The notes beneath the pieces were generated by a model that searched no databases, had not been told where the DNA came from, and saw nothing but the letters and a program-made list of their open reading frames with translations. Positions 37,987 to 48,403 of a stretch of DNA of 64,000 nt are shown here, one piece after another. Positions within the stretch are counted from its first letter, which is position 1, and each line of letters begins with the position of its first letter. The position numbers and the translations under genes were made by a program. Source of the DNA: Clostridiales bacterium (GTDB taxonomy: Bacteria > Bacillota > Clostridia > Saccharofermentanales > Saccharofermentanaceae); contig JAGCSR010000056.1 in the NCBI GenBank assembly GCA_017964005.1, positions 62,001 through 126,000 on the forward strand, in the 5' to 3' direction.

Positions 37987-38841
37987 TTATTGAAATATCT
38001 TAACGAGACAGAATCTTACTGCCATGTAAGCCAGGAAAATAATGAATGCGGTGATCGCAGAATACTTGCGTCTCTTGTCGGAACGCATAAAGCACATTAA
38101 TGATGCGTAGACACAGGCGGTGATCACTGTTCTTACGTACTCGTTGCCTGCTGAGAAGAAGAAACCGTAATAAGGGATCGAAAGCATTACGATGTCGATA
38201 AGAAGCTCGGCTTTGCCGTATTTTCTCTTGAATGCCAGACACAGCAATGCCGTAAGTCCTACGGACAGCGCGATCTTACCCAAGGTGATGACTGTCTGTT
38301 CAAAAGACAGGATAACAGTGTCGGCATTATACCCGTAGAATCCCAGGATATAGGGAAGAATGCTGGCTATGATCTTCAATATGACCGAAGTTACCGCAAA
38401 TCCCGTAAAACATTTGCCTGTATCGTAGAGGATCATCATCGACGAGATGGCAACGGAACAGGCTGCAATGAACATCAGGAAGTAAATTGTGTAGAAGATC
38501 AGGGAGAGATTGTCGGGCCATAAGATTATCGGTGCCGAATACTCGGCGGAGATAATTGCCGCAATACAGAATGTAAGCCCCGTAAAACTCTCGATCTTTG
38601 CGTACCTGGACGCAATGGGGGCGCCGCAATAGCGGCACTTACCGCGGAGGAACAGCCAGCTGAATACGGGGACGAGATCCAATGCGCCCAAAGTGTGGCC
38701 GCAGGTCATGCACATCGAATGACCCCGGGATACGCTGCGTCCTGCAGGGATCCTGTATATGATGACGTTAAGGAAGCTTCCGATGATAAATCCCAGGAGC
38801 GTGAAGAATACTATGAAGAAACCGTATATAAACCCCGTCAA
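37987..38841 (-). CDS. Type IV prepilin peptidase family protein, atypical active site
   Basis: This 284-residue membrane protein has the A24 peptidase layout: the GSFLNVIIYRIP start (residues 21-32), two Cys pairs C44/C47 and C69/C72 of the cytoplasmic domain, then about six membrane helices. It should remove prepilin leaders and methylate Phe1. The second catalytic motif GxGD is not visible: the aligned place reads G-K-A-E at 209-212. Asp140 (YDTG) may be the first catalytic residue. So either Glu substitutes, the alignment is off, or another peptidase does the work. It begins with TTG, with GGAGGG eight bases upstream, and is divergent from pilB. Confidence 0.8.
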   Translation of the reverse strand: MTGFIYGFFIVFFTLLGFIIGSFLNVIIYRIPAGRSVSRGHSMCMTCGHTLGALDLVPVFSWLFLRGKCRYCGAPIASRYAKIESFTGLTFCIAAIISAEYSAPIILWPDNLSLIFYTIYFLMFIAACSVAISSMMILYDTGKCFTGFAVTSVILKIIASILPYILGFYGYNADTVILSFEQTVITLGKIALSVGLTALLCLAFKRKYGKAELLIDIVMLSIPYYGFFFSAGNEYVRTVITACVYASLMCFMRSDKRRKYSAITAFIIFLAYMAVRFCLVKIFQ

Positions 38842-39150: not shown

Positions 39151-40815
39151 ATGAAAAGATTAGGAGATATCCTCGTCGAGAGCGGGTTCTTAAACGCAAC
39201 GGAACTTGCAGAAGCTCTTTCTCAGCAAAAAGAGACCGGAAAGAGATTAGGTGAAGTAATCGTAGAGAGCGGACTTCTGTCCGAATTCGATATCTTAAGA
39301 GCCGTATCGTCTCAGTTCAATTACCCTATTATCGATCTGACCAGCCTGGAGATAGACCCTAAGGCGACGGCACTTCTCGATGAGAAGTTCTGTTCCGAGC
39401 ACGCGGTGCTCCCGATCGGATTCGACGGTGACAGCCTGGTTGTCGCGATCGATGACCCCATGGACTTTACAATAGAAGAAGAACTCCAGTTCCGTACCGG
39501 ATATCAGGTAATCCTGATGCTGGCTACCAGATCTTCCATTCTTGATGCCGTTAAGGTTAATTACGGTAAGGAGATTGCCCAGAAGGCTGCAGAGGAACTT
39601 GGTGTTGAACTTGAAGCCGAGGTATCTGCTGCGGATGCCGAGATGGCAGAAGCCATTAACTCCGCTCCTGTCGTTAAGCTCGTTAACTCCATGATCGACT
39701 ACGCTATCAGAGCCGGATCTTCGGATATTCACGTTGAGCCTTTGGAGGACAGAGTCAGAGTCCGTATCCGTATCGACGGCGTTATGCAGGAGGTCATGAG
39801 CAACCCGATCTCCGCAAAGGATGCGATCACCACGAGAATCAAGATCTTGGGCGGTATGAACATCGCAGAGAAGCGTATCCCTCAGGACGGACGTATCAGG
39901 ACCGAGATCAACGGCGAACCTGTCGACATGCGTGTATCCATCCTTCCTTGTATCACAGGTGAGAAGACGGTTATCCGTATCCTTGCGAAGAATGACGGTA
40001 ACCTCAACAGAAAATATCTCGGTATCTCAGATCATAATAATGAACTTATCAATAAGATCATCAAGGTACCTCAGGGAATCTGCCTGATCTCGGGACCTAC
40101 CGGATCCGGTAAGACCACCACACTTTATACACTCCTTTCAGAGAAGAATACTCCCGAGACAAATATCATCACGGTTGAAGACCCTGTCGAGATCAGGATC
40201 CCCGGTATCAACCAGGTTCAGGTTAATACCAAAGCGGGAATGACATTCGCCAGCGGTCTTCGTTCTATCCTGCGTCAGGACCCCGACATCGTTCTCGTCG
40301 GTGAGATCCGTGACGGTGAGACCGCAGAGATAGCAATGCGTGCCGCCATCACGGGACACTTGGTTTTCAGTACCATCCATACCAACGATGCCGTATCGTC
40401 CATCAACAGACTTATCGATATGGGTCTGGAGCCCTATATGGTCTGCTCCGCTCTTGTCGGAGTCGTATCACAGCGTCTTGTCAGACGTATCTGCACCAAT
40501 TGCCGTGAAGCTTATGAGCCCGGCGAGGACGATATCGTTCTGCTGAGACTTGAGCCCGGTCAGAAGATCTACCGCGGCAAAGACTGTTCAGAGTGTAATG
40601 ACAGCGGATATAAGGGAAGAATCGCTATCCATGAGATCGTCGTAATGACGAGAGCCATGAAGGTTCTTATCGAGAAGCGTGCAAGTGAAGAAGATATGAG
40701 AAACCTGGCTGTTTCCGAAGGAACACAGATGCTTCAGGATTCTGCAAGAGCTTTGGTTCTGGAGGGTATCACCACCGTCTTCGAACTTAACAGAGTTGCT
40801 TACACAATAGATTAA
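39151..40815 (+). CDS. pilB: Type IV pilus extension ATPase PilB (with N-terminal MshEN domains)
   Basis: The 554-residue ATPase powers pilin assembly from the cytoplasmic face. Residues 1-140 contain two MshEN-type repeats, RLGDILVESGFL (3-14) and RLGEVIVESGLL (32-43), each followed by a Leu-rich helix; this pattern binds c-di-GMP in MshE and other PilB proteins. The catalytic part has Walker A GPTGSGKTT (about 315), the Asp box, Walker B QDPDIVLVGEIRD (about 377) and a His box around HLVFSTIHTND. A CTNC...CSEC zinc site lies near 450-490, as in other PilB/GspE proteins. It is the first gene of pilB-T-C-M-N-O. Confidence 0.97.
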   Translation: MKRLGDILVESGFLNATELAEALSQQKETGKRLGEVIVESGLLSEFDILRAVSSQFNYPIIDLTSLEIDPKATALLDEKFCSEHAVLPIGFDGDSLVVAIDDPMDFTIEEELQFRTGYQVILMLATRSSILDAVKVNYGKEIAQKAAEELGVELEAEVSAADAEMAEAINSAPVVKLVNSMIDYAIRAGSSDIHVEPLEDRVRVRIRIDGVMQEVMSNPISAKDAITTRIKILGGMNIAEKRIPQDGRIRTEINGEPVDMRVSILPCITGEKTVIRILAKNDGNLNRKYLGISDHNNELINKIIKVPQGICLISGPTGSGKTTTLYTLLSEKNTPETNIITVEDPVEIRIPGINQVQVNTKAGMTFASGLRSILRQDPDIVLVGEIRDGETAEIAMRAAITGHLVFSTIHTNDAVSSINRLIDMGLEPYMVCSALVGVVSQRLVRRICTNCREAYEPGEDDIVLLRLEPGQKIYRGKDCSECNDSGYKGRIAIHEIVVMTRAMKVLIEKRASEEDMRNLAVSEGTQMLQDSARALVLEGITTVFELNRVAYTID

Positions 40816-40838: not shown

Positions 40839-41954
40839 GTGGAAGGATTTAGTTTATCAATGGAATCCGTTTTGTCCGAAGCGGTGAGAATGGGCGCATC
40901 CGATACCCATATCACGGTCGGGCTCCCGCCGATGATCCGTATCGACGGTACCCTGATGCCGTTGGGTAATCAGCCTTTGACTGCTGCAGATACCGAATAT
41001 CTGTGCAAGTCAATGATCAACAAGTCCAGACAGCAGTATTTGAACGAGAGAGGCGAGATCGACTTCTCTTATGTTGTTGAGGACTACAGCCGTTTCAGAT
41101 GTAACATCTACAAGCAGCGCGGTACCTATGCGCTTGCTGCAAGATCCATCTCGAATTCCATTCCTACATGCGAACAGTTAGGTCTTCCTGATATCTTCAA
41201 GGAATTCGTTATGAAGCCGAGAGGACTTATCCTCGTTACCGGCCCTACGGGTTCAGGTAAGTCCACGACACTTGCTGCCATGATCGGTCACGTTAACGGC
41301 AACAAGAAGTGCCATGTTCTTACACTTGAGGAACCTATCGAGTATCTCCATGATCACGGAGAAGCCATGATCAACCAAAGAGAGATCCACGAGGATACGC
41401 TGTCATTCGCTAACGCTCTGAGAGCTGCCCTCCGTGAGGACCCTGACATTATCCTCGTCGGAGAGATGCGTGACCTTGATACTATCAGTACCGCTATTAC
41501 CGCAGCCGAGACAGGACACTTGGTTTTGTCAACACTCCATACCTCATCCGCTTCCGATACGGTTAACCGTATCATCGACGTTTTCCCTCCTCACCAGCAG
41601 GATCAGGTAAGAGTTCAGTTGTCCACCGTTCTGGTTGCCGTTATCTGTCAGACCCTCGTTCCGAGGATCGGCGGCGGCCGTTGCGCAGCATTTGAGATCA
41701 TGATCGCAAATGACGCTATCCGTAACAACATCCGTGAAGGTAAGACATATCAGATAGACAGTACTTTGGCTACATCCCTCCAGCAGGGCATGTGTCCTTT
41801 GGACTTCTATCTTGCCGAGCTTATCAAGAGAGGCATTATCTCAAGAGATACGGGACTCCAGAGATGCCGTATCCCCGATGACCTCAAGCGTTATATCAAC
41901 AACGTCGGCGGAGCTACCAACTCGCCGTTGTTCAACGATCTTGATTTCGCTTAA
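40839..41954 (+). CDS. pilT: Type IV pilus retraction ATPase PilT
   Basis: The 371-residue ATPase drives pilus retraction, needed for twitching and DNA uptake in other bacteria. Visible are SDTHITVG near the N-terminus, Walker A GPTGSGKST (about 135), Walker B EDPDIILVGEMRD (about 199), the His box HLVLSTLHT and the AIRNNIREGK motif near residue 289, which is diagnostic for PilT rather than PilB. Translation begins at GTG 40839 after GAGGAGGAG. Having a PilT argues for dynamic pili rather than a static pseudopilus. Confidence 0.96.
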   Translation: MEGFSLSMESVLSEAVRMGASDTHITVGLPPMIRIDGTLMPLGNQPLTAADTEYLCKSMINKSRQQYLNERGEIDFSYVVEDYSRFRCNIYKQRGTYALAARSISNSIPTCEQLGLPDIFKEFVMKPRGLILVTGPTGSGKSTTLAAMIGHVNGNKKCHVLTLEEPIEYLHDHGEAMINQREIHEDTLSFANALRAALREDPDIILVGEMRDLDTISTAITAAETGHLVLSTLHTSSASDTVNRIIDVFPPHQQDQVRVQLSTVLVAVICQTLVPRIGGGRCAAFEIMIANDAIRNNIREGKTYQIDSTLATSLQQGMCPLDFYLAELIKRGIISRDTGLQRCRIPDDLKRYINNVGGATNSPLFNDLDFA

Positions 41955-41996: not shown

Positions 41997-43199
41997 ATGG
42001 CCAATTTTAAATATACGGTCATTGACAGTGCCGGTAAAACGTCTGAAGGCCTGATCGAAGCCGAGAATATCGGTGAAGCGTCACGTAAGCTTAAGTCAGA
42101 CGGCAAGTATATAGCATCGCTTAAACTTGACCGAGGCACATTCGGGAACATCCAGATCGGCAGCCCCAAGCTCAAGACTCAGGAACTCGTTGTTATCACA
42201 AGACAGTTGTCTTCACTCCTGTCGGCAGGTATCACTGTAGTCCGTGCTCTTGACATGCTTTATCAGCAGCTCGAGACTCAGAAGGCAAAGAAGTGTATCG
42301 GTGAGATCTATGAAGCTGTACAGGGCGGTAAGTCTCTTTCTGAAGCTTTTGCTGACCAGAGGGGTGTTGTTCCCAACATCATGATCCAGATGATATCCGC
42401 CGGTGAGGAATCCGGTCGTTTGGATGAAGTTATGTACAGACTTGCTGAACACTTCCAGAAGGATTCCAAGATCAAGAACAAGATCTCTTCAGCAATGGTT
42501 TATCCTAAGATGCTTGCTATCGTTACGGTTTTGGTTTCCGTCGGATTGTTGACATTCCTTGTTCCGGGTATTGCTAATACTATTGCTGAATTGGGCGGTG
42601 AGCTTCCCGGACTTACCAAGGCTATCATGGCTATCAGTAACTCGTTGGTACATTACTGGTATATATATGTAGCTGTAATCGGTGTCTCGGTATATTCGTT
42701 CAAACTGTGGCGCAACTCGGAGAAGGGCGCATATCAGTGGGATACTATTATGCTTAAGGCACCTGTTGTCGGCAAGATGACAAGAATGAATGCTTCTGCC
42801 AGATTTACAAGAACAGTCTCCACACTTCTTCGAAGCGGTATCTCTGTTCTTACCTCTGTCGAGATTACCGAGAAGTCTCTCGATAATGTCGTTCTTGAGA
42901 AGAAACTCGCAGATGCCAGGATCGAGATTAGGAAGGGTACTGCTCTTTCCAAATCCATCAGAGGAATTACCGAGTTCCCTCCAATGATCTACGCTATGGT
43001 ATCGATCGGTGAGGAATCCGGTACATTGGACAGCATACTTGATAAGGCTGCAGACTTCTTCGAGGACGAAGCAGATGCTGCAACCTCCAAGTTTGTTGCG
43101 ACACTCGAGCCTGTCATGATCATCATCATGGCTATCATAGTCGGTTTGGTTGTCGGCGGTATCGCAATGCCTATATTCAACATGGCATCTTACATCTGA
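41997..43199 (+). CDS. pilC: Type IV pilus inner-membrane platform protein PilC
   Basis: The 400-residue protein has the two repeated GspF domains of PilC (about residues 65-190 and 270-390), each with the helical SLSEAF or ALSKSI stretch and a GEESG element (GEESGRLDEV near 140 and GEESGTLDSI near 343), and three membrane helices (about 165-190, 215-235 and 370-393). It forms the platform on which the PilB and PilT rings act. It is separated from pilT by 42 bp and carries AAGGAGG before the ATG. Confidence 0.97.
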   Translation: MANFKYTVIDSAGKTSEGLIEAENIGEASRKLKSDGKYIASLKLDRGTFGNIQIGSPKLKTQELVVITRQLSSLLSAGITVVRALDMLYQQLETQKAKKCIGEIYEAVQGGKSLSEAFADQRGVVPNIMIQMISAGEESGRLDEVMYRLAEHFQKDSKIKNKISSAMVYPKMLAIVTVLVSVGLLTFLVPGIANTIAELGGELPGLTKAIMAISNSLVHYWYIYVAVIGVSVYSFKLWRNSEKGAYQWDTIMLKAPVVGKMTRMNASARFTRTVSTLLRSGISVLTSVEITEKSLDNVVLEKKLADARIEIRKGTALSKSIRGITEFPPMIYAMVSIGEESGTLDSILDKAADFFEDEADAATSKFVATLEPVMIIIMAIIVGLVVGGIAMPIFNMASYI

Positions 43200-43220: not shown

Positions 43221-44336
43221 ATGGATTTTTCATCATTTGGAAAAGGCGGCACAGAATTAGTTCTTGACTGTTCAAGTTCTGATCTGAAAGTCGTTCAGGG
43301 ATCTTACAATCCCAAGACCGGAAAGATCGTAATCGATAAATCCGGTATAGTACCGTTGGAGGGCGACTCCATTTCTGACGGTGCCATCTCGGATTCCTTC
43401 GGTATCGTAATGGCATTGAAGCATGCTTTCGCTAAACTCGATATCAGGGCTAAGAGTGTTACTCTTACGACAGAGGGAGCTTTCCTCCACTCAAGAGATC
43501 TTGAGCTTCCTGTCGTAAAGGAAGACCAGCTCAAGGATATGGTTAAATATGAGGTTATGGGTCAGGGTTCCAACCGTGATCTTTCCATAGACTACATTGT
43601 TTACGGAACGACACAGGACGAAGAGACCAACGCCGATAAGCTTAAGGTCAGAGCTACTGCTGTTCCCGTAGAAGTCATCGCTGACTTCAGAGAACTCTTA
43701 AAGCAGTTGGATCTGGCTCCCGATGCAATGGATGTTAACCCCAATGCCATCAGGAAGCTCTTTGCAAGCACGATCATCAACGGCAATCACAGCACGGCTC
43801 AGTCCACATTGATGCTCCTTGAGCTGTCAACAAAGACAACGACGGTTACGATCCTTGATAAGGGATTCCCGGTATTGAGCAGAAGACTTCAGTTCGGTCA
43901 CCAGAATATCCGTCAGGTAGCTGATTCCGTAAGAAAGCTTCAGGGCGGTGAAGTCGGTCAGTCCTCCCTTGCGAGAAGACTTAACATCTCCAAGTCAGAC
44001 AACGATTCTTCCGTACCGATCGAGGATATCGATGTATGGAATGAGACCGTTGCCGAGCAGCCTGCACTGCAGAGTGCTGTAAATGCTTACTTTAAGAGCC
44101 TCGTGGATGCGGTATCCCGTACGGCTCAGTTCTCGATATCGAAGTTCCGCATCGATGCTATCAGCACCTGCTTCATCTACGGATCAGGTTCCGGATATAA
44201 GAAAATCGATAAGGAACTTTCACGCCAGCTCGGTACTCAGGTTGAGATCCTCAATACCCTGAGCAACGTTGAGGGCAGAAATTTTGAGCTTCCTCAGTTC
44301 GTTAACTGCTGCGGTGCTCTTATAAGAGAAGACTAA
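43221..44336 (+). CDS. pilM: Type IV pilus assembly protein PilM (actin-like ATPase)
   Basis: The 371-residue protein is of the PilM/FtsA-like actin fold. It begins with a strand carrying LVLDCSSSDLKVV and keeps the ELPVVKEDQLKDMVKYE segment (about residues 94-110), the DVNPNAIRKL run near 173 and the phosphate-binding turn near 329 (FIYGSGSGYK). PilM sits in the cytoplasm and binds the N-terminal tail of PilN, joining the platform to the alignment subcomplex. Gene order pilM-pilN-pilO is the standard one. Confidence 0.92.
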   Translation: MDFSSFGKGGTELVLDCSSSDLKVVQGSYNPKTGKIVIDKSGIVPLEGDSISDGAISDSFGIVMALKHAFAKLDIRAKSVTLTTEGAFLHSRDLELPVVKEDQLKDMVKYEVMGQGSNRDLSIDYIVYGTTQDEETNADKLKVRATAVPVEVIADFRELLKQLDLAPDAMDVNPNAIRKLFASTIINGNHSTAQSTLMLLELSTKTTTVTILDKGFPVLSRRLQFGHQNIRQVADSVRKLQGGEVGQSSLARRLNISKSDNDSSVPIEDIDVWNETVAEQPALQSAVNAYFKSLVDAVSRTAQFSISKFRIDAISTCFIYGSGSGYKKIDKELSRQLGTQVEILNTLSNVEGRNFELPQFVNCCGALIRED

Positions 44337-44351: not shown

Positions 44352-45320
44352 ATGGCTATTAACAAAAGACTGTTAGCCAAGAGGGATATGAACTTCTTCG
44401 CGGAATTTACCGCAAATGCCGCGAAGATGAGAAGAATGTTCGGTTATGCTGTTGTTATCGGTGTAATCGTCGTCGGTGTCCTTCTTGCTATCGTAGGATA
44501 TGACCTTGTACGTAATGCACTTATCAAGGCCGAGATCACTTCTTTGGAACTTATTCTCAATTCCGAGGAGTATGCGCATCTCGAAGAGAGAGCTCAGGAA
44601 CTTGCAAGAGAATTGGAAGAGAAGCAGAATATCTACTATGCTTTGACACAGATGAGAAAGCAGGTTGATACAACGAATTCCGCTCCTGTCGATCTCCCTG
44701 ATATATTGAAAGCAAGCATCCCCAGTGATACTTATGTAGAGCACTATGCGATCACTTCCAATGAAGCTGCGATTTCCGGTGCATCTTTCTCATATTACAG
44801 CGTAGTCGATATGGTACATAAGCTTAATGAGTCGGATGTATTTACCACTGTACCCAAGCTTCATATTGCAACTGTCGATCCTACTTCTATTGCAGGTGTA
44901 AGTGATTTTATCCAGACAAAACCGAGTGCTGACGGAAAGACCAGTGTTACGACTTTTAACCTGATCGACAATTATTATCAATTCGAGATCCAGGGAACTC
45001 TCCTCGGAGAAGTCTATATCTCCATCGGACGTTATGCTAACGGTGATGTTGCTACGAGCCTTTCCGGTATCGAGACCATCCCGGTCAAGATCGGCAATCC
45101 TTATGAGATCGCAGATGTTGCAACATATACAACAGGCGGTATTACATATAACCTTGCTAAGATCACCGTAAACGGCATTGCTGCAGATCAGAACAGCGTT
45201 GACGGCGCTAAGGCCAACAACAAGATCGCAGGAACTGCTTATAACAACATCGAGATCGGCTTGTATTATGATAAGCCTGTCGAGACGACGGAATCATCTG
45301 AGGGAGGTGAAGGTAAATGA
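44352..45320 (+). CDS. pilN: Type IV pilus assembly protein PilN-like
   Basis: A 322-residue bitopic protein: an N-terminal cytoplasmic tail starting MAINKRLLAKRDMNFF (in the place of the usual INLLP PilM-binding motif), one membrane helix (about 34-55), a coiled-coil stretch (about 60-100, ELARELEEKQNIYYAL) and an outside domain that is longer than the ~200 residues usual for PilN. It has a C-terminal Glu/Gly-rich end. Its stop overlaps pilO by 4 bp (ATGA). Identity rests on architecture and position more than on sequence. Confidence 0.85.
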   Translation: MAINKRLLAKRDMNFFAEFTANAAKMRRMFGYAVVIGVIVVGVLLAIVGYDLVRNALIKAEITSLELILNSEEYAHLEERAQELARELEEKQNIYYALTQMRKQVDTTNSAPVDLPDILKASIPSDTYVEHYAITSNEAAISGASFSYYSVVDMVHKLNESDVFTTVPKLHIATVDPTSIAGVSDFIQTKPSADGKTSVTTFNLIDNYYQFEIQGTLLGEVYISIGRYANGDVATSLSGIETIPVKIGNPYEIADVATYTTGGITYNLAKITVNGIAADQNSVDGAKANNKIAGTAYNNIEIGLYYDKPVETTESSEGGEGK

Positions 45321-46411
45321 ACAACCTGACAACTAGAGAGAAGGCCATGGCCTTCGGTATACTTCTTATCCTTGTCATATTCCTCGTATACTTCTTCGGT
45401 ATCCGTATCCTTAACGACAACTACAAGCAGTATCAGCAGGATCTCAAGACCTTGCAGGATAAGAAAAAGTTCTTAGATGAACTTAAAGAAGAGAATGCCA
45501 ACACGGAAGAAGAGATCAAGCTCCTCAACGCAAATATCGAGAAGATCGAGCTGTCCTTCATCGACAAGCTCGAGACAGAGAATATCGAACAGTACCTGTT
45601 TGATGTTTTCGAGAAGAACAACTGTCCTTACATGTCTAATGTTGATGTAGAAGACATCACCATGACACCTATCGTTCTCGCAGACGGTTCTTCATCAGAG
45701 AATGCGGTTCTCAGAAGGAGCATTAAGATCACATATGTAACGACTGACGGATTCCTGCCTGCTACTTATAACGGCGATCCTTCATTCTGGAATGAAGACG
45801 GAACACCTAATGAGCAGTTGCTGAAAGATCTTATCAAGTATGTCGAAGACAGATTCGCACGCGCGAAGGCTGACAAGAAGGCTGAGACAGATCCCAATGC
45901 AGCTCCCGGAGATCCTGAGACCGAGATCGTATATTTCGAAGGTTACGACGGATTTATCGATTCCCTGAAGCAGATCGCTGCAGAGAATAAGGACTGCATC
46001 AAGGTTACAGGTATCGAGGCGGAAAGCACACACGGATATCTGAAGCTTACGGCTACCGTTGACTTCTTCGGCGCTACATTCAGCAACAGGGTATCTGTTG
46101 ATAATAACAAGGCTGCATATACCTGGTGGTGCGGTAATACAAATATCGATACCAAGGGCGGCTTCATCGGCAGACCTTACTATGTTAAGAATCCTGACAG
46201 CAAGTGGAACCACACAGCTGCATACGGCAAGGATGTAATCGGATTCTTCGACAGACCGTTTACACACTATGTCATCAATGCTTACTTCTCGAAGGTTCTC
46301 ATGGATCTTAACAGCATGGATCCTGTTACCGGCGGTGCAGCTACGATCAACGGCCAGAATCAGGATGCAGCCAATAATCCGGATGACTTCCAGCAGGTCT
46401 CTAACGACTGA
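45317..46411 (+). CDS. pilO: Type IV pilus assembly protein PilO-like
   Basis: A 364-residue bitopic protein with one membrane helix (about residues 12-32), a strong coiled coil (about 36-95) and a larger outside domain. Genuine PilO proteins are about 200 residues; this one has roughly 150 extra outside residues with a Lys/Glu-rich insert near 180-200. It pairs with the PilN-like protein in the same operon. It ends the pilB operon as judged from the promoter of the following pilin gene. Confidence 0.82.
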   Translation: MNNLTTREKAMAFGILLILVIFLVYFFGIRILNDNYKQYQQDLKTLQDKKKFLDELKEENANTEEEIKLLNANIEKIELSFIDKLETENIEQYLFDVFEKNNCPYMSNVDVEDITMTPIVLADGSSSENAVLRRSIKITYVTTDGFLPATYNGDPSFWNEDGTPNEQLLKDLIKYVEDRFARAKADKKAETDPNAAPGDPETEIVYFEGYDGFIDSLKQIAAENKDCIKVTGIEAESTHGYLKLTATVDFFGATFSNRVSVDNNKAAYTWWCGNTNIDTKGGFIGRPYYVKNPDSKWNHTAAYGKDVIGFFDRPFTHYVINAYFSKVLMDLNSMDPVTGGAATINGQNQDAANNPDDFQQVSND

Positions 46412-46465: not shown

Positions 46466-46494
46466 ATTGAAAAAAAGTGTTGCAATTCTGAAAT
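46466..46494. promoter_or_regulatory. Element shared with the PilX-like gene promoter
   Basis: ATTGAAAAAAAGT (46466-46478), eight bases, then TCTGAAAT (46487-46494). The same two blocks with the same gap occur at 32893-32921, upstream of the 647-residue PilX-like gene. Here the element overlaps the -35 box. It could be a common regulator or UP element. Confidence 0.4.
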
Positions 46495-46507
46495 AAGGTG
46501 ATATACT
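46480..46507 (+). promoter_or_regulatory. Strong promoter of the 66-residue pilin gene
   Basis: TTGCAA (46480-46485), a 16-bp spacer and TATACT (46502-46507) with an upstream TG making an extended -10. The region before it is A-rich. AGGAGG precedes the ATG. Confidence 0.7.
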
Positions 46508-46547: not shown

Positions 46548-46748
46548 ATGAAGAAGATTTCTAAGTCCAAGAAGGGTTTCACCCTCATCGAGATGGTTCT
46601 CGTCATCGCTATTATCGTTATCCTCGCAGCAGTTCTTGCTATGAGCATCGGTACATACCTGACAAAGGCTAAGGCAGCAGCTTCCTCTGTTTCCTTGCAC
46701 AACTACTCCATCTCTTCTGTAAACGCTGCAGTTGACGCTGAGCTCTAA
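46548..46748 (+). CDS. Very short type IV prepilin, 66 residues (probable major pilin)
   Basis: The prepilin has a 10-residue basic leader ending KKG, cut before Phe to give F-T-L-I-E with Glu at +5, then the standard hydrophobic N-terminal helix and only about 28 more residues. The mature chain would be 56 residues, a lone alpha-helix without the usual globular head. It has its own strong promoter, excellent ribosome binding site and a very stable terminator, and regular codon use, all fitting high expression. Short pilins of about 60 residues are known in Geobacter, where a second chain supplies the head; only three aromatic residues are present here. Confidence 0.9.
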   Translation: MKKISKSKKGFTLIEMVLVIAIIVILAAVLAMSIGTYLTKAKAAASSVSLHNYSISSVNAAVDAEL

Positions 46749-46770
46749 TAACAGATTAAGGTGAAATACC

Positions 46771-46800
46771 GGGGCGGGATTTGATCCCGCCCCTTTTCTT
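46771..46800 (+). terminator. Terminator after the 66-residue pilin gene
   Basis: Ten-bp stem GGGGCGGGAT/ATCCCGCCCC (46771-46780 and 46784-46793), 3-base loop, then TTTTCTT. It makes the pilin gene monocistronic. Confidence 0.93.
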
Positions 46801-46881
46801 TACTCAAAAATCGTGAATAAGGGAGATCTGCCGGGCAAAAAAAGATTTTGCCTAAAATTTGAACAAATTGTAAATTAGTTG

Positions 46882-46909
46882 TTGAAAAATATTGAAAACC
46901 AAGTATAAT
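46882..46909 (+). promoter_or_regulatory. Promoter of the second pilin operon
   Basis: TTGAAA (46882-46887), 16-bp spacer, TATAAT (46904-46909). The start near 46916 gives a 45-base leader with GGAGGAG before the ATG at 46961. Confidence 0.7.
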
Positions 46910-46960
46910 GTAATTGAAATAAAGATGAATTAGTTTATTCTTTACCATACGGAGGAGCTT

Positions 46961-47176
46961 ATGAAAAGACTATCCAAGACAAAAAGAGGTTTCACAATGG
47001 TTGAGATCTTGATGGTTGTAGCTATTATCATTATACTTGCTGCCGCTGTAGGAATCTCTGCCAACGATATATTGCACAATGCTCACGAAGGTCAGGATTC
47101 AGTCTCCCAGAGATTGGAAGATGATAAGCAGGGGATCTCTGCCAGCGAGCAGAAGCTGCAGGATTACGGTTTCTAA
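46961..47176 (+). CDS. Second very short prepilin, 71 residues
   Basis: Leader of 10 residues ending KRG, then F-T-M-V-E with Glu at +5 and a normal hydrophobic helix. The mature chain is 61 residues. After the helix it becomes strongly charged (HEGQD, RLEDDKQ), unlike the neutral 66-residue pilin, so it is probably not interchangeable with it. It is the first gene of a three-prepilin operon (46961-48403) and may be a minor pilin that pairs with the longer ones. Confidence 0.88.
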   Translation: MKRLSKTKRGFTMVEILMVVAIIIILAAAVGISANDILHNAHEGQDSVSQRLEDDKQGISASEQKLQDYGF

Positions 47177-47186
47177 GGAGGACGAC

Positions 47187-47792
47187 ATGCTTAAGATAGT
47201 AAAGGTTAAGAAAACAAAAAAAGGTTTTACGCTCCTTGAGACTTTGTTGTCCGTTGCTCTTCTCGTTATCATCTCTTCAATGATGATGAACGGTTTTATG
47301 GCATCGATCAATTTCTCTCACAATACATCGGTTTACGCAAAGTCTGCCGGAACGAACTACAGGGATGCTATGTCTGATCTTGCTTACTATGCAACCAAGG
47401 CCGGTACCAACAAGAAAGCGGCATATTCAGCCTTGAACTCACAAGGTGCTGACGGAACGATGACATTTACCGGATCCGGTGTTGCAGGAACAAACCTTAT
47501 CCTGAACAGTGACGGTGAACTCAAGGTAAAGGTATTCTCAAAAACAAGTAATGCCACGGATCTTCATGATAACCTGGGTCTGTCTCAGTACGCTGAGAAT
47601 TACGGCGGCGGTGATGACAGTTATGCAGATAACCGTTATTCCTTCAACTACATTCCCAGCACAAACGCAGACGGTGACGGTGATCATGTAGGCGAGATCA
47701 GGATCTTCAGACAGAATTCCACCGGAAATTATTTCTGGGGTTATAAGAAGGACGATGGTACGGTAGTTATCCTTTCACAGGTTAACAGCTGA
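47187..47792 (+). CDS. Prepilin-type protein, PilV/PilW-like, 201 residues
   Basis: The start at ATG 47187 follows AAGGAGG, 10 bp after the preceding stop; frames opening further upstream are not needed. The leader of 13 residues ends KKG, followed by F-T-L-L-E with Glu at +5 and a hydrophobic helix (to about residue 36). The ~165-residue head is rich in Ser, Gly, Asn, Asp and Tyr. It has the size of a minor pilin and probably helps prime assembly or provides surface properties. Confidence 0.85.
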   Translation: MLKIVKVKKTKKGFTLLETLLSVALLVIISSMMMNGFMASINFSHNTSVYAKSAGTNYRDAMSDLAYYATKAGTNKKAAYSALNSQGADGTMTFTGSGVAGTNLILNSDGELKVKVFSKTSNATDLHDNLGLSQYAENYGGGDDSYADNRYSFNYIPSTNADGDGDHVGEIRIFRQNSTGNYFWGYKKDDGTVVILSQVNS

Positions 47793-47830: not shown

Positions 47831-48403
47831 ATGAGAAGGATATCCAAGAAGAATAAAAAGGGTTTTACATTACTCGAGATGATGCTTTCCATTGCTATCA
47901 TCGTTATGATCAGCGGACTTTTGGTTACACTGATCGTATGCATCAAGGATTCATTCATGACGGTGTTCAACCAGAATGACTCGGCAGACTATGCAATGCT
48001 CTTTGCAAGAGGCTTCGAGCAGTCATTCCTCGGTAAAGTCGTAAATGAGACATCCGATCCCAGTTATGAGTATCATGTCGGAGTAAACGGCGCCGGATCT
48101 TACCGTCTGTTCTGTAACTCTCACTCGGTATTCGATACTGCTCAGAGCAGGACCCAGAACGGTACTGTTGAGAAATGGGAGATCAAGATGGGTTACAAGT
48201 GGGATGATTCACGTAACATGGTTCTTTACAAGGTCTATGTTTGGGATAACTACTACAATCCCGGAAAACTTGCATATATCTATGAAGGCGGATTCATGAT
48301 CCCTCACTTCAGTGATCAGATCGGTGAGATTACCGTCAGCGGATCTAACATCGTATCCGGTGATACAGACTATAAGGATCATATCAAGTTTAAGCCCGCA
48401 TAA
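47831..48403 (+). CDS. Prepilin-type protein, PilW/GspJ-like, 190 residues
   Basis: The 11-residue leader ends KKG, cut before F-T-L-L-E with Glu at +5, then a hydrophobic helix (to about residue 37). The head of ~150 residues has several aromatic residues (KWEIKMGYKW, VYVWDNYY) and resembles the general shape of GspJ/PilW minor pilins. It is the last gene of the prepilin operon before a strong terminator. GGGAGCG serves as ribosome binding site. Confidence 0.85.
   Translation: MRRISKKNKKGFTLLEMMLSIAIIVMISGLLVTLIVCIKDSFMTVFNQNDSADYAMLFARGFEQSFLGKVVNETSDPSYEYHVGVNGAGSYRLFCNSHSVFDTAQSRTQNGTVEKWEIKMGYKWDDSRNMVLYKVYVWDNYYNPGKLAYIYEGGFMIPHFSDQIGEITVSGSNIVSGDTDYKDHIKFKPA

Follow-up and report, generated by a model that had tools for sequence, protein, structure and literature searches.

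A 56-residue headless single-helix pilin from which retractable surface pili of mostly gut and rumen Saccharofermentans appear to be built

The 64,000-nucleotide stretch of DNA that was analyzed (the window) carries two prepilin genes of 66 and 71 codons (mature chains of 56 and 61 residues) located 3' of a pilB-pilT-pilC-pilM-pilN-pilO-like cluster. A prepilin peptidase gene, pilD (284 aa, 37987 to 38841, reverse strand; Pfam A24_N_bact, 1.5e-30), is followed on the forward strand by genes for a PilB extension ATPase with an MshEN domain (554 aa, 39151 to 40815; Pfam T2SSE 1.4e-131, MshEN 2.9e-21), a PilT retraction ATPase (371 aa, 40839 to 41954; TIGR01420, 466 bits against a cutoff of 319), a PilC platform protein (400 aa, 41997 to 43199; Pfam T2SSF, 2.4e-60), PilM (371 aa, 43221 to 44336; Pfam PilM_2, 7.2e-18), PilN (322 aa, 44352 to 45320; Pfam PilN, 1.3e-7), and a PilO-like protein (364 aa, 45317 to 46411), the last named for its position after pilN, which is kept in relatives, with no family above cutoff. 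With PilB, PilT, PilC, PilM, PilN, and the peptidase all present, the locus belongs with the type IVa machines. The two short prepilins, A (46548 to 46748) and B (46961 to 47176), are followed by two longer ones, C (201 aa, 47187 to 47792; N_methyl 5e-5; conserved) and D (190 aa, 47831 to 48403), all on the forward strand.

Prepilin A reads MKKISKSKKG/FTLIEMVLVIAIIVILAAVLAMSIGTYLTKAKAAASSVSLHNYSISSVNAAVDAEL and prepilin B reads MKRLSKTKRG/FTMVEILMV...QDYGF, with the slash marking leader cleavage. Both match the span and the mature lengths given in the first-pass annotation, and the leaders, Phe1, and Glu5 that it described are borne out by a G-F-x3-E motif in each and by Pfam N_methyl scores of 32.6 bits (A) and 26.6 bits (B) against a cutoff of 21.2, which place them in the type IV pilin superfamily; searches of this kind would miss prepilins with unusual leaders. 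Truncation or frameshifting of a longer pilin is ruled out for both, as the short length is kept across the genus. Nor is A a Flp/Tad pilin, since it scores 18.4 bits with Flp1_like against a cutoff of 33.5 and the Tad-like locus of the genome sits elsewhere (L125:8857-12620, G000:C22), with its own 58-aa Flp1-like pilin. The mature A chain has three aromatic residues in 56 (F, Y, and Y), few for a conductive e-pilin.

Prepilin A is present in 32 of 34 same-genus genomes, with 52 to 80% identity and a similar short length, and its codons 11 to 30 are under purifying selection (pN 0.023, pS 0.433); both observations argue that it is a real gene and not a chance reading frame. The two genomes that lack it, G014 and G026, are 80% and 81% complete. 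In a 15-row alignment of the prepilin, residues 9 to 30 are mostly invariant, as are I34, Y37, A41, A44, S47, H51, N52, and V58; B varies more, although its mature length is 61 in most genomes. The order A-B-C-D recurs in the named loci of Saccharofermentans and in an outlying MAG labeled Clostridiaceae (L090), which has a more distant copy. Record titles of the named genomes with the short pilin mostly give Saccharofermentans, Mageeibacillus, Clostridiales, or Ruminococcaceae bacteria, and many of these genomes come from rumen or gut samples; the genus name Saccharofermentans is used here on the strength of such titles. Across 341 genomes of the class (about 200 genera), no clear A-like short gene from another genus is among the matches listed, except a 77-aa A-like gene on a small contig (L147). 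We note that a Clostridia MAG (L084) has a further prepilin of 67 aa and that three loci (L039, L054, and L068) have the short pilin in extra tandem copies beside A.

Gene A has expression signals of its own, as the first-pass annotation had proposed. A promoter-like site (46480 to 46507, forward strand), TTGCAA-16-TATACT with TG before the -10 element, precedes an AGGAGG Shine-Dalgarno sequence, and the gene is followed by an intrinsic terminator (46771 to 46802, forward strand) whose stem is formed by GGGGCGGGATTTGATCCCGCCCC and TTTTCTTT and which ends in a T-rich tail. Among 130-nt stretches drawn at random from the window, 1.8% have a promoter score of at least 10.8, as this site does. The same arrangement of promoter-like site, strong Shine-Dalgarno sequence, and hairpin terminator surrounds A in nearly all of 25 operon loci, the commonest promoter-like pair being TTGCA(A)...TATAAT/TATACT at 44 to 50 nt from the start, then AGGAGG, and a hairpin with a T-run lies 3' of A in every one of the 25. 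What had gone unmentioned is that B has a separate promoter-like site (TTGAAA-16-TATAAT, 46882 to 46909, forward strand), which would serve a B-C-D unit; TTGAAA-16/17-TATAAT is found in 11 of 15 loci.

Codon usage points the same way as these signals for A. With adaptation weights derived from 17 of the genome's own ribosomal genes, A has the highest codon adaptation index (CAI) of the four pilins at all 16 loci compared (means of 0.756 for A, 0.456 for B, 0.548 for C, and 0.536 for D), and a looser reference set gives the same picture. In the window genome, the CAI of A is 0.798 compared with a ribosomal-protein mean of 0.716; codon bias and terminators are indirect measures of abundance. The earlier suggestion that A is built like a highly expressed major subunit thus stands, on its codon bias and on the conserved promoter, Shine-Dalgarno, and terminator unit. 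There is good support for A as a genuine and conserved pilin, probably expressed at a high level, and we infer, with good support, that it would be abundant in the filament.

The view that A has almost nothing beyond its N-terminal helix agrees with the AlphaFold2 prediction, a single continuous helix over residues 13 to 65 of 66 (mean pLDDT 84; one chain, 15 sequences), assembly being outside what a single-chain model can show. The chain has no C-terminal globular domain of the sort seen in canonical type IVa major pilins. Most of the full-length pilins in the comparison have Pro22, as does Geobacter PilA-N, but it occurs in none of 25 A and none of 13 B sequences. The best PDB matches of the A profile are to Geobacter PilA-N (9egp_A, E 1.6e-10; 7tgg_A, 2.5e-10). 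A Foldseek search with the single-helix model of A gave no match, as expected for one helix.

Prepilins C and D each begin with a type IV leader and an N-terminal helix of their own, lie closely 3' of B in one apparent operon, and have lower codon bias than A; in PDB profile searches, both match mainly the pilin N-terminal helix. The predicted D structure is a helix with seven strands that aligns over 117 residues with Streptococcus sanguinis PilB (Z 8.5, rmsd 3.5) and over 107 residues with XcpW-type pseudopilins (Z 6.7, rmsd 3.1), both above the unrelated structures in the same comparison, which reach Z 4.0. Because middling Z values are common, this is a resemblance and not proof; Foldseek gave no match for D below an E value of 0.001. 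Because of this likeness to GspJ/PilB-type minor pilins, D is probably a tip subunit and not a head for A. The first-pass idea that the 201- or 190-residue protein supplies heads to the short pilin has less support; their own leaders and helices, and the structural matches of D, make both look like minor pilins.

Longer prepilins also occur away from the operon. Orphans of 276 aa with an Asn/Asp-rich stretch (L118:11474-12304, G000:C39) and of 251 aa (L121:9196-9951, G020:C5) are flanked by similar transporter and glycosidase-like genes. At the other extreme is a 50-aa prepilin (L119:9346-9498, G000:C1; mature 39) with prolines at 22 and 23, whose neighbors encode proteins of 1060 aa and of 212 aa, the latter lipoprotein-like.

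An abundant longer major pilin elsewhere in the genome was named at the outset as the finding that would count against A. Among 49 other genomes that are at least 90% complete, 23 have a single PilC-type platform and the remainder two or more; one of the 23 (G002), which may be fragmentary, shows only a PilC of lower score that lies on a different contig. In eight of the 23, which are 97 to 99% complete, the prepilins listed are either short or long (C, D, and orphans), with no open frame of 102 to 166 residues among them and thus no canonical major pilin. One of the eight (G404) has a 101-residue stop-to-stop frame, identified as B because it lies between A and C, as well as a frame of 1566 residues. 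The window's own assembly (2.46 Mb, with the window on contig 30) likewise yielded no longer canonical pilin, but it is 86% complete and might lack a second pilin for that reason. The one-machine genomes thus favor A, whereas roughly half of the genus also carries a second, separate machine with a canonical Pro22 pilin, which counts against it and calls for an amendment of the first-pass interpretation. In two-machine genomes, this second cluster has its own pilC, pilM, pilB, Pro22 pilin, and a giant prepilin; in G017, the Pro22 pilin has 132 aa and a CAI of 0.67, below the 0.848 of A in the same genome. We note that the giant prepilin of G017 (L123:6543-14711, G017:C2) has 2722 aa, of which only the N-terminal motif matches Pfam, that its pilus-like cluster also has a peptidase gene, and that giant frames of 2100 to 3800 aa are found in G001, G005, G007, G012, G030, and G032.

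We consider A likely to be the major subunit, and the fuller reading, in which A builds a type IVa-machine pilus that is headless, or nearly so, and has B, C, D, and the orphan long prepilin as minor subunits, to be the more probable account of the locus. The locus would encode a retractable pilus assembled by PilB, PilT, PilC, PilM, PilN, the PilO-like protein, and PilD. PilD would cut the KKG leader of A to give a 56-residue chain starting F1...E5, and PilB and PilC would stack many copies of it through the nearly invariant helix of residues 1 to 20, leaving the second half of the helix as the outer layer of the filament, with no globular head. Prepilins B (a proposed minor pilin), C, and D, from their own transcription unit and with weaker codon bias, would be minor pilins, of which C and D would carry heads and probably form a tip or priming complex, and an orphan prepilin of about 250 to 300 residues would add a long-stalked head. 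Like the bare shaft, the parts assigned to B, C, D, and the orphan are read from gene content and sequence. The narrower claim, that a monoderm type IVa machine makes a retractable filament from proline-less headless helices alone, with binding left to rare minor subunits, is finely balanced. The chances that the shaft has no heads are likewise roughly even, since the sequence would be compatible with a partner gene located far away.

Such a partner is what a split pilin would have, with A as the N-terminal half and a head, made from another gene, docking on it in equal numbers. The nearest solved relative of A is PilA-N, and Geobacter pili contain both PilA-N and PilA-C (PMC12954529, PMC11046646), but we judge this arrangement unlikely here. 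No PilA-C-like gene lies next to A, where the terminator is followed by another short prepilin, and A has no Pro22. Seventeen orphan copies of A also have no PilA-C-like or conserved codirectional partner beside them; they stand alone, mostly opposite convergent unrelated genes. Orphan second copies of A have CAI values of 0.41 to 0.65, below that of operon A, and at four loci (L043, L045, L047, and L120) a recurring TGAACA...TGTGAAC-like element, unlike the operon promoter, lies 5' of the orphan copy near -35.

It is very unlikely, in our view, that C, D, or the orphan long prepilin makes the shaft, with A as a minor pilin or as one that primes assembly. The heads are on C, D, and the orphan; however, C and D are less codon biased and follow B closely, D matches minor pilins, and C and D vary widely in length with about 30% mean column identity, whereas A is nearly invariant. 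A short secretion-like pseudopilus with A as its piston subunit is highly improbable, for although PilC has GspF as its best NCBIfam match (below cutoff) and D resembles GspJ/XcpW, PilT scores above its family cutoff and A, with its high codon bias, should be present in many copies.

In the prevailing view, pilin heads give type IVa shafts their surface and some of their strength, and the single well-known short pilin, that of Geobacter (PilA-N), proved to depend on a head from a partner. With A as the major subunit, Saccharofermentans would be an experiment of nature on the need for heads, as the whole genus seemingly keeps a retraction machine with neither head nor Pro22 on this pilin, which makes the question directly testable; the genus includes isolates labeled KHP2 and YAD3003 in records. 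No paper on Saccharofermentans pili was found in the literature searched.

Mature type IVa major pilins average 141 +/- 25 residues, with a range of 42 to 297 (PMC11046646), and pilins of very small size are already recognized as a structural class, exemplified by Geobacter (PMC7212644). Prepilin A shares with canonical pilins such as Neisseria gonorrhoeae PilE and Pseudomonas aeruginosa PilA a KKG-type leader, F1, E5, a hydrophobic helix, and a PilB/T/C/M/N machine, but has neither head nor Pro22 and a mature length of 56. The type IV pili of S. sanguinis are likewise from a monoderm and have minor pilins, among them PilB, which D resembles, but their major pilins are full size (the PilE1 chain has 139 residues). 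Closer is Geobacter sulfurreducens PilA-N (geopilin; PDB 2M7G, 6VK9, and 7TGG), which is also short, nearly all helix, and F1/E5, and uses a type IVa machine. It was long thought to self-assemble, but in the cryo-EM filament PilA-N is accompanied by an equal share of PilA-C (PMC12954529), the product of the neighboring gene (PMC11046646), whereas A comes from a monoderm and has no adjoining partner. The Tad/Flp pilins (Caulobacter PilA, 45 mature residues) are bare amphipathic helices that do form filaments (PMC11067988), but with a Tad machine and a Glu-Tyr Flp motif. We propose that a PilB/PilT/PilC/PilM/PilN machine whose major subunit is a bare helix would stand between the Geobacter and Tad cases, plausibly as a distinct type of pilus.
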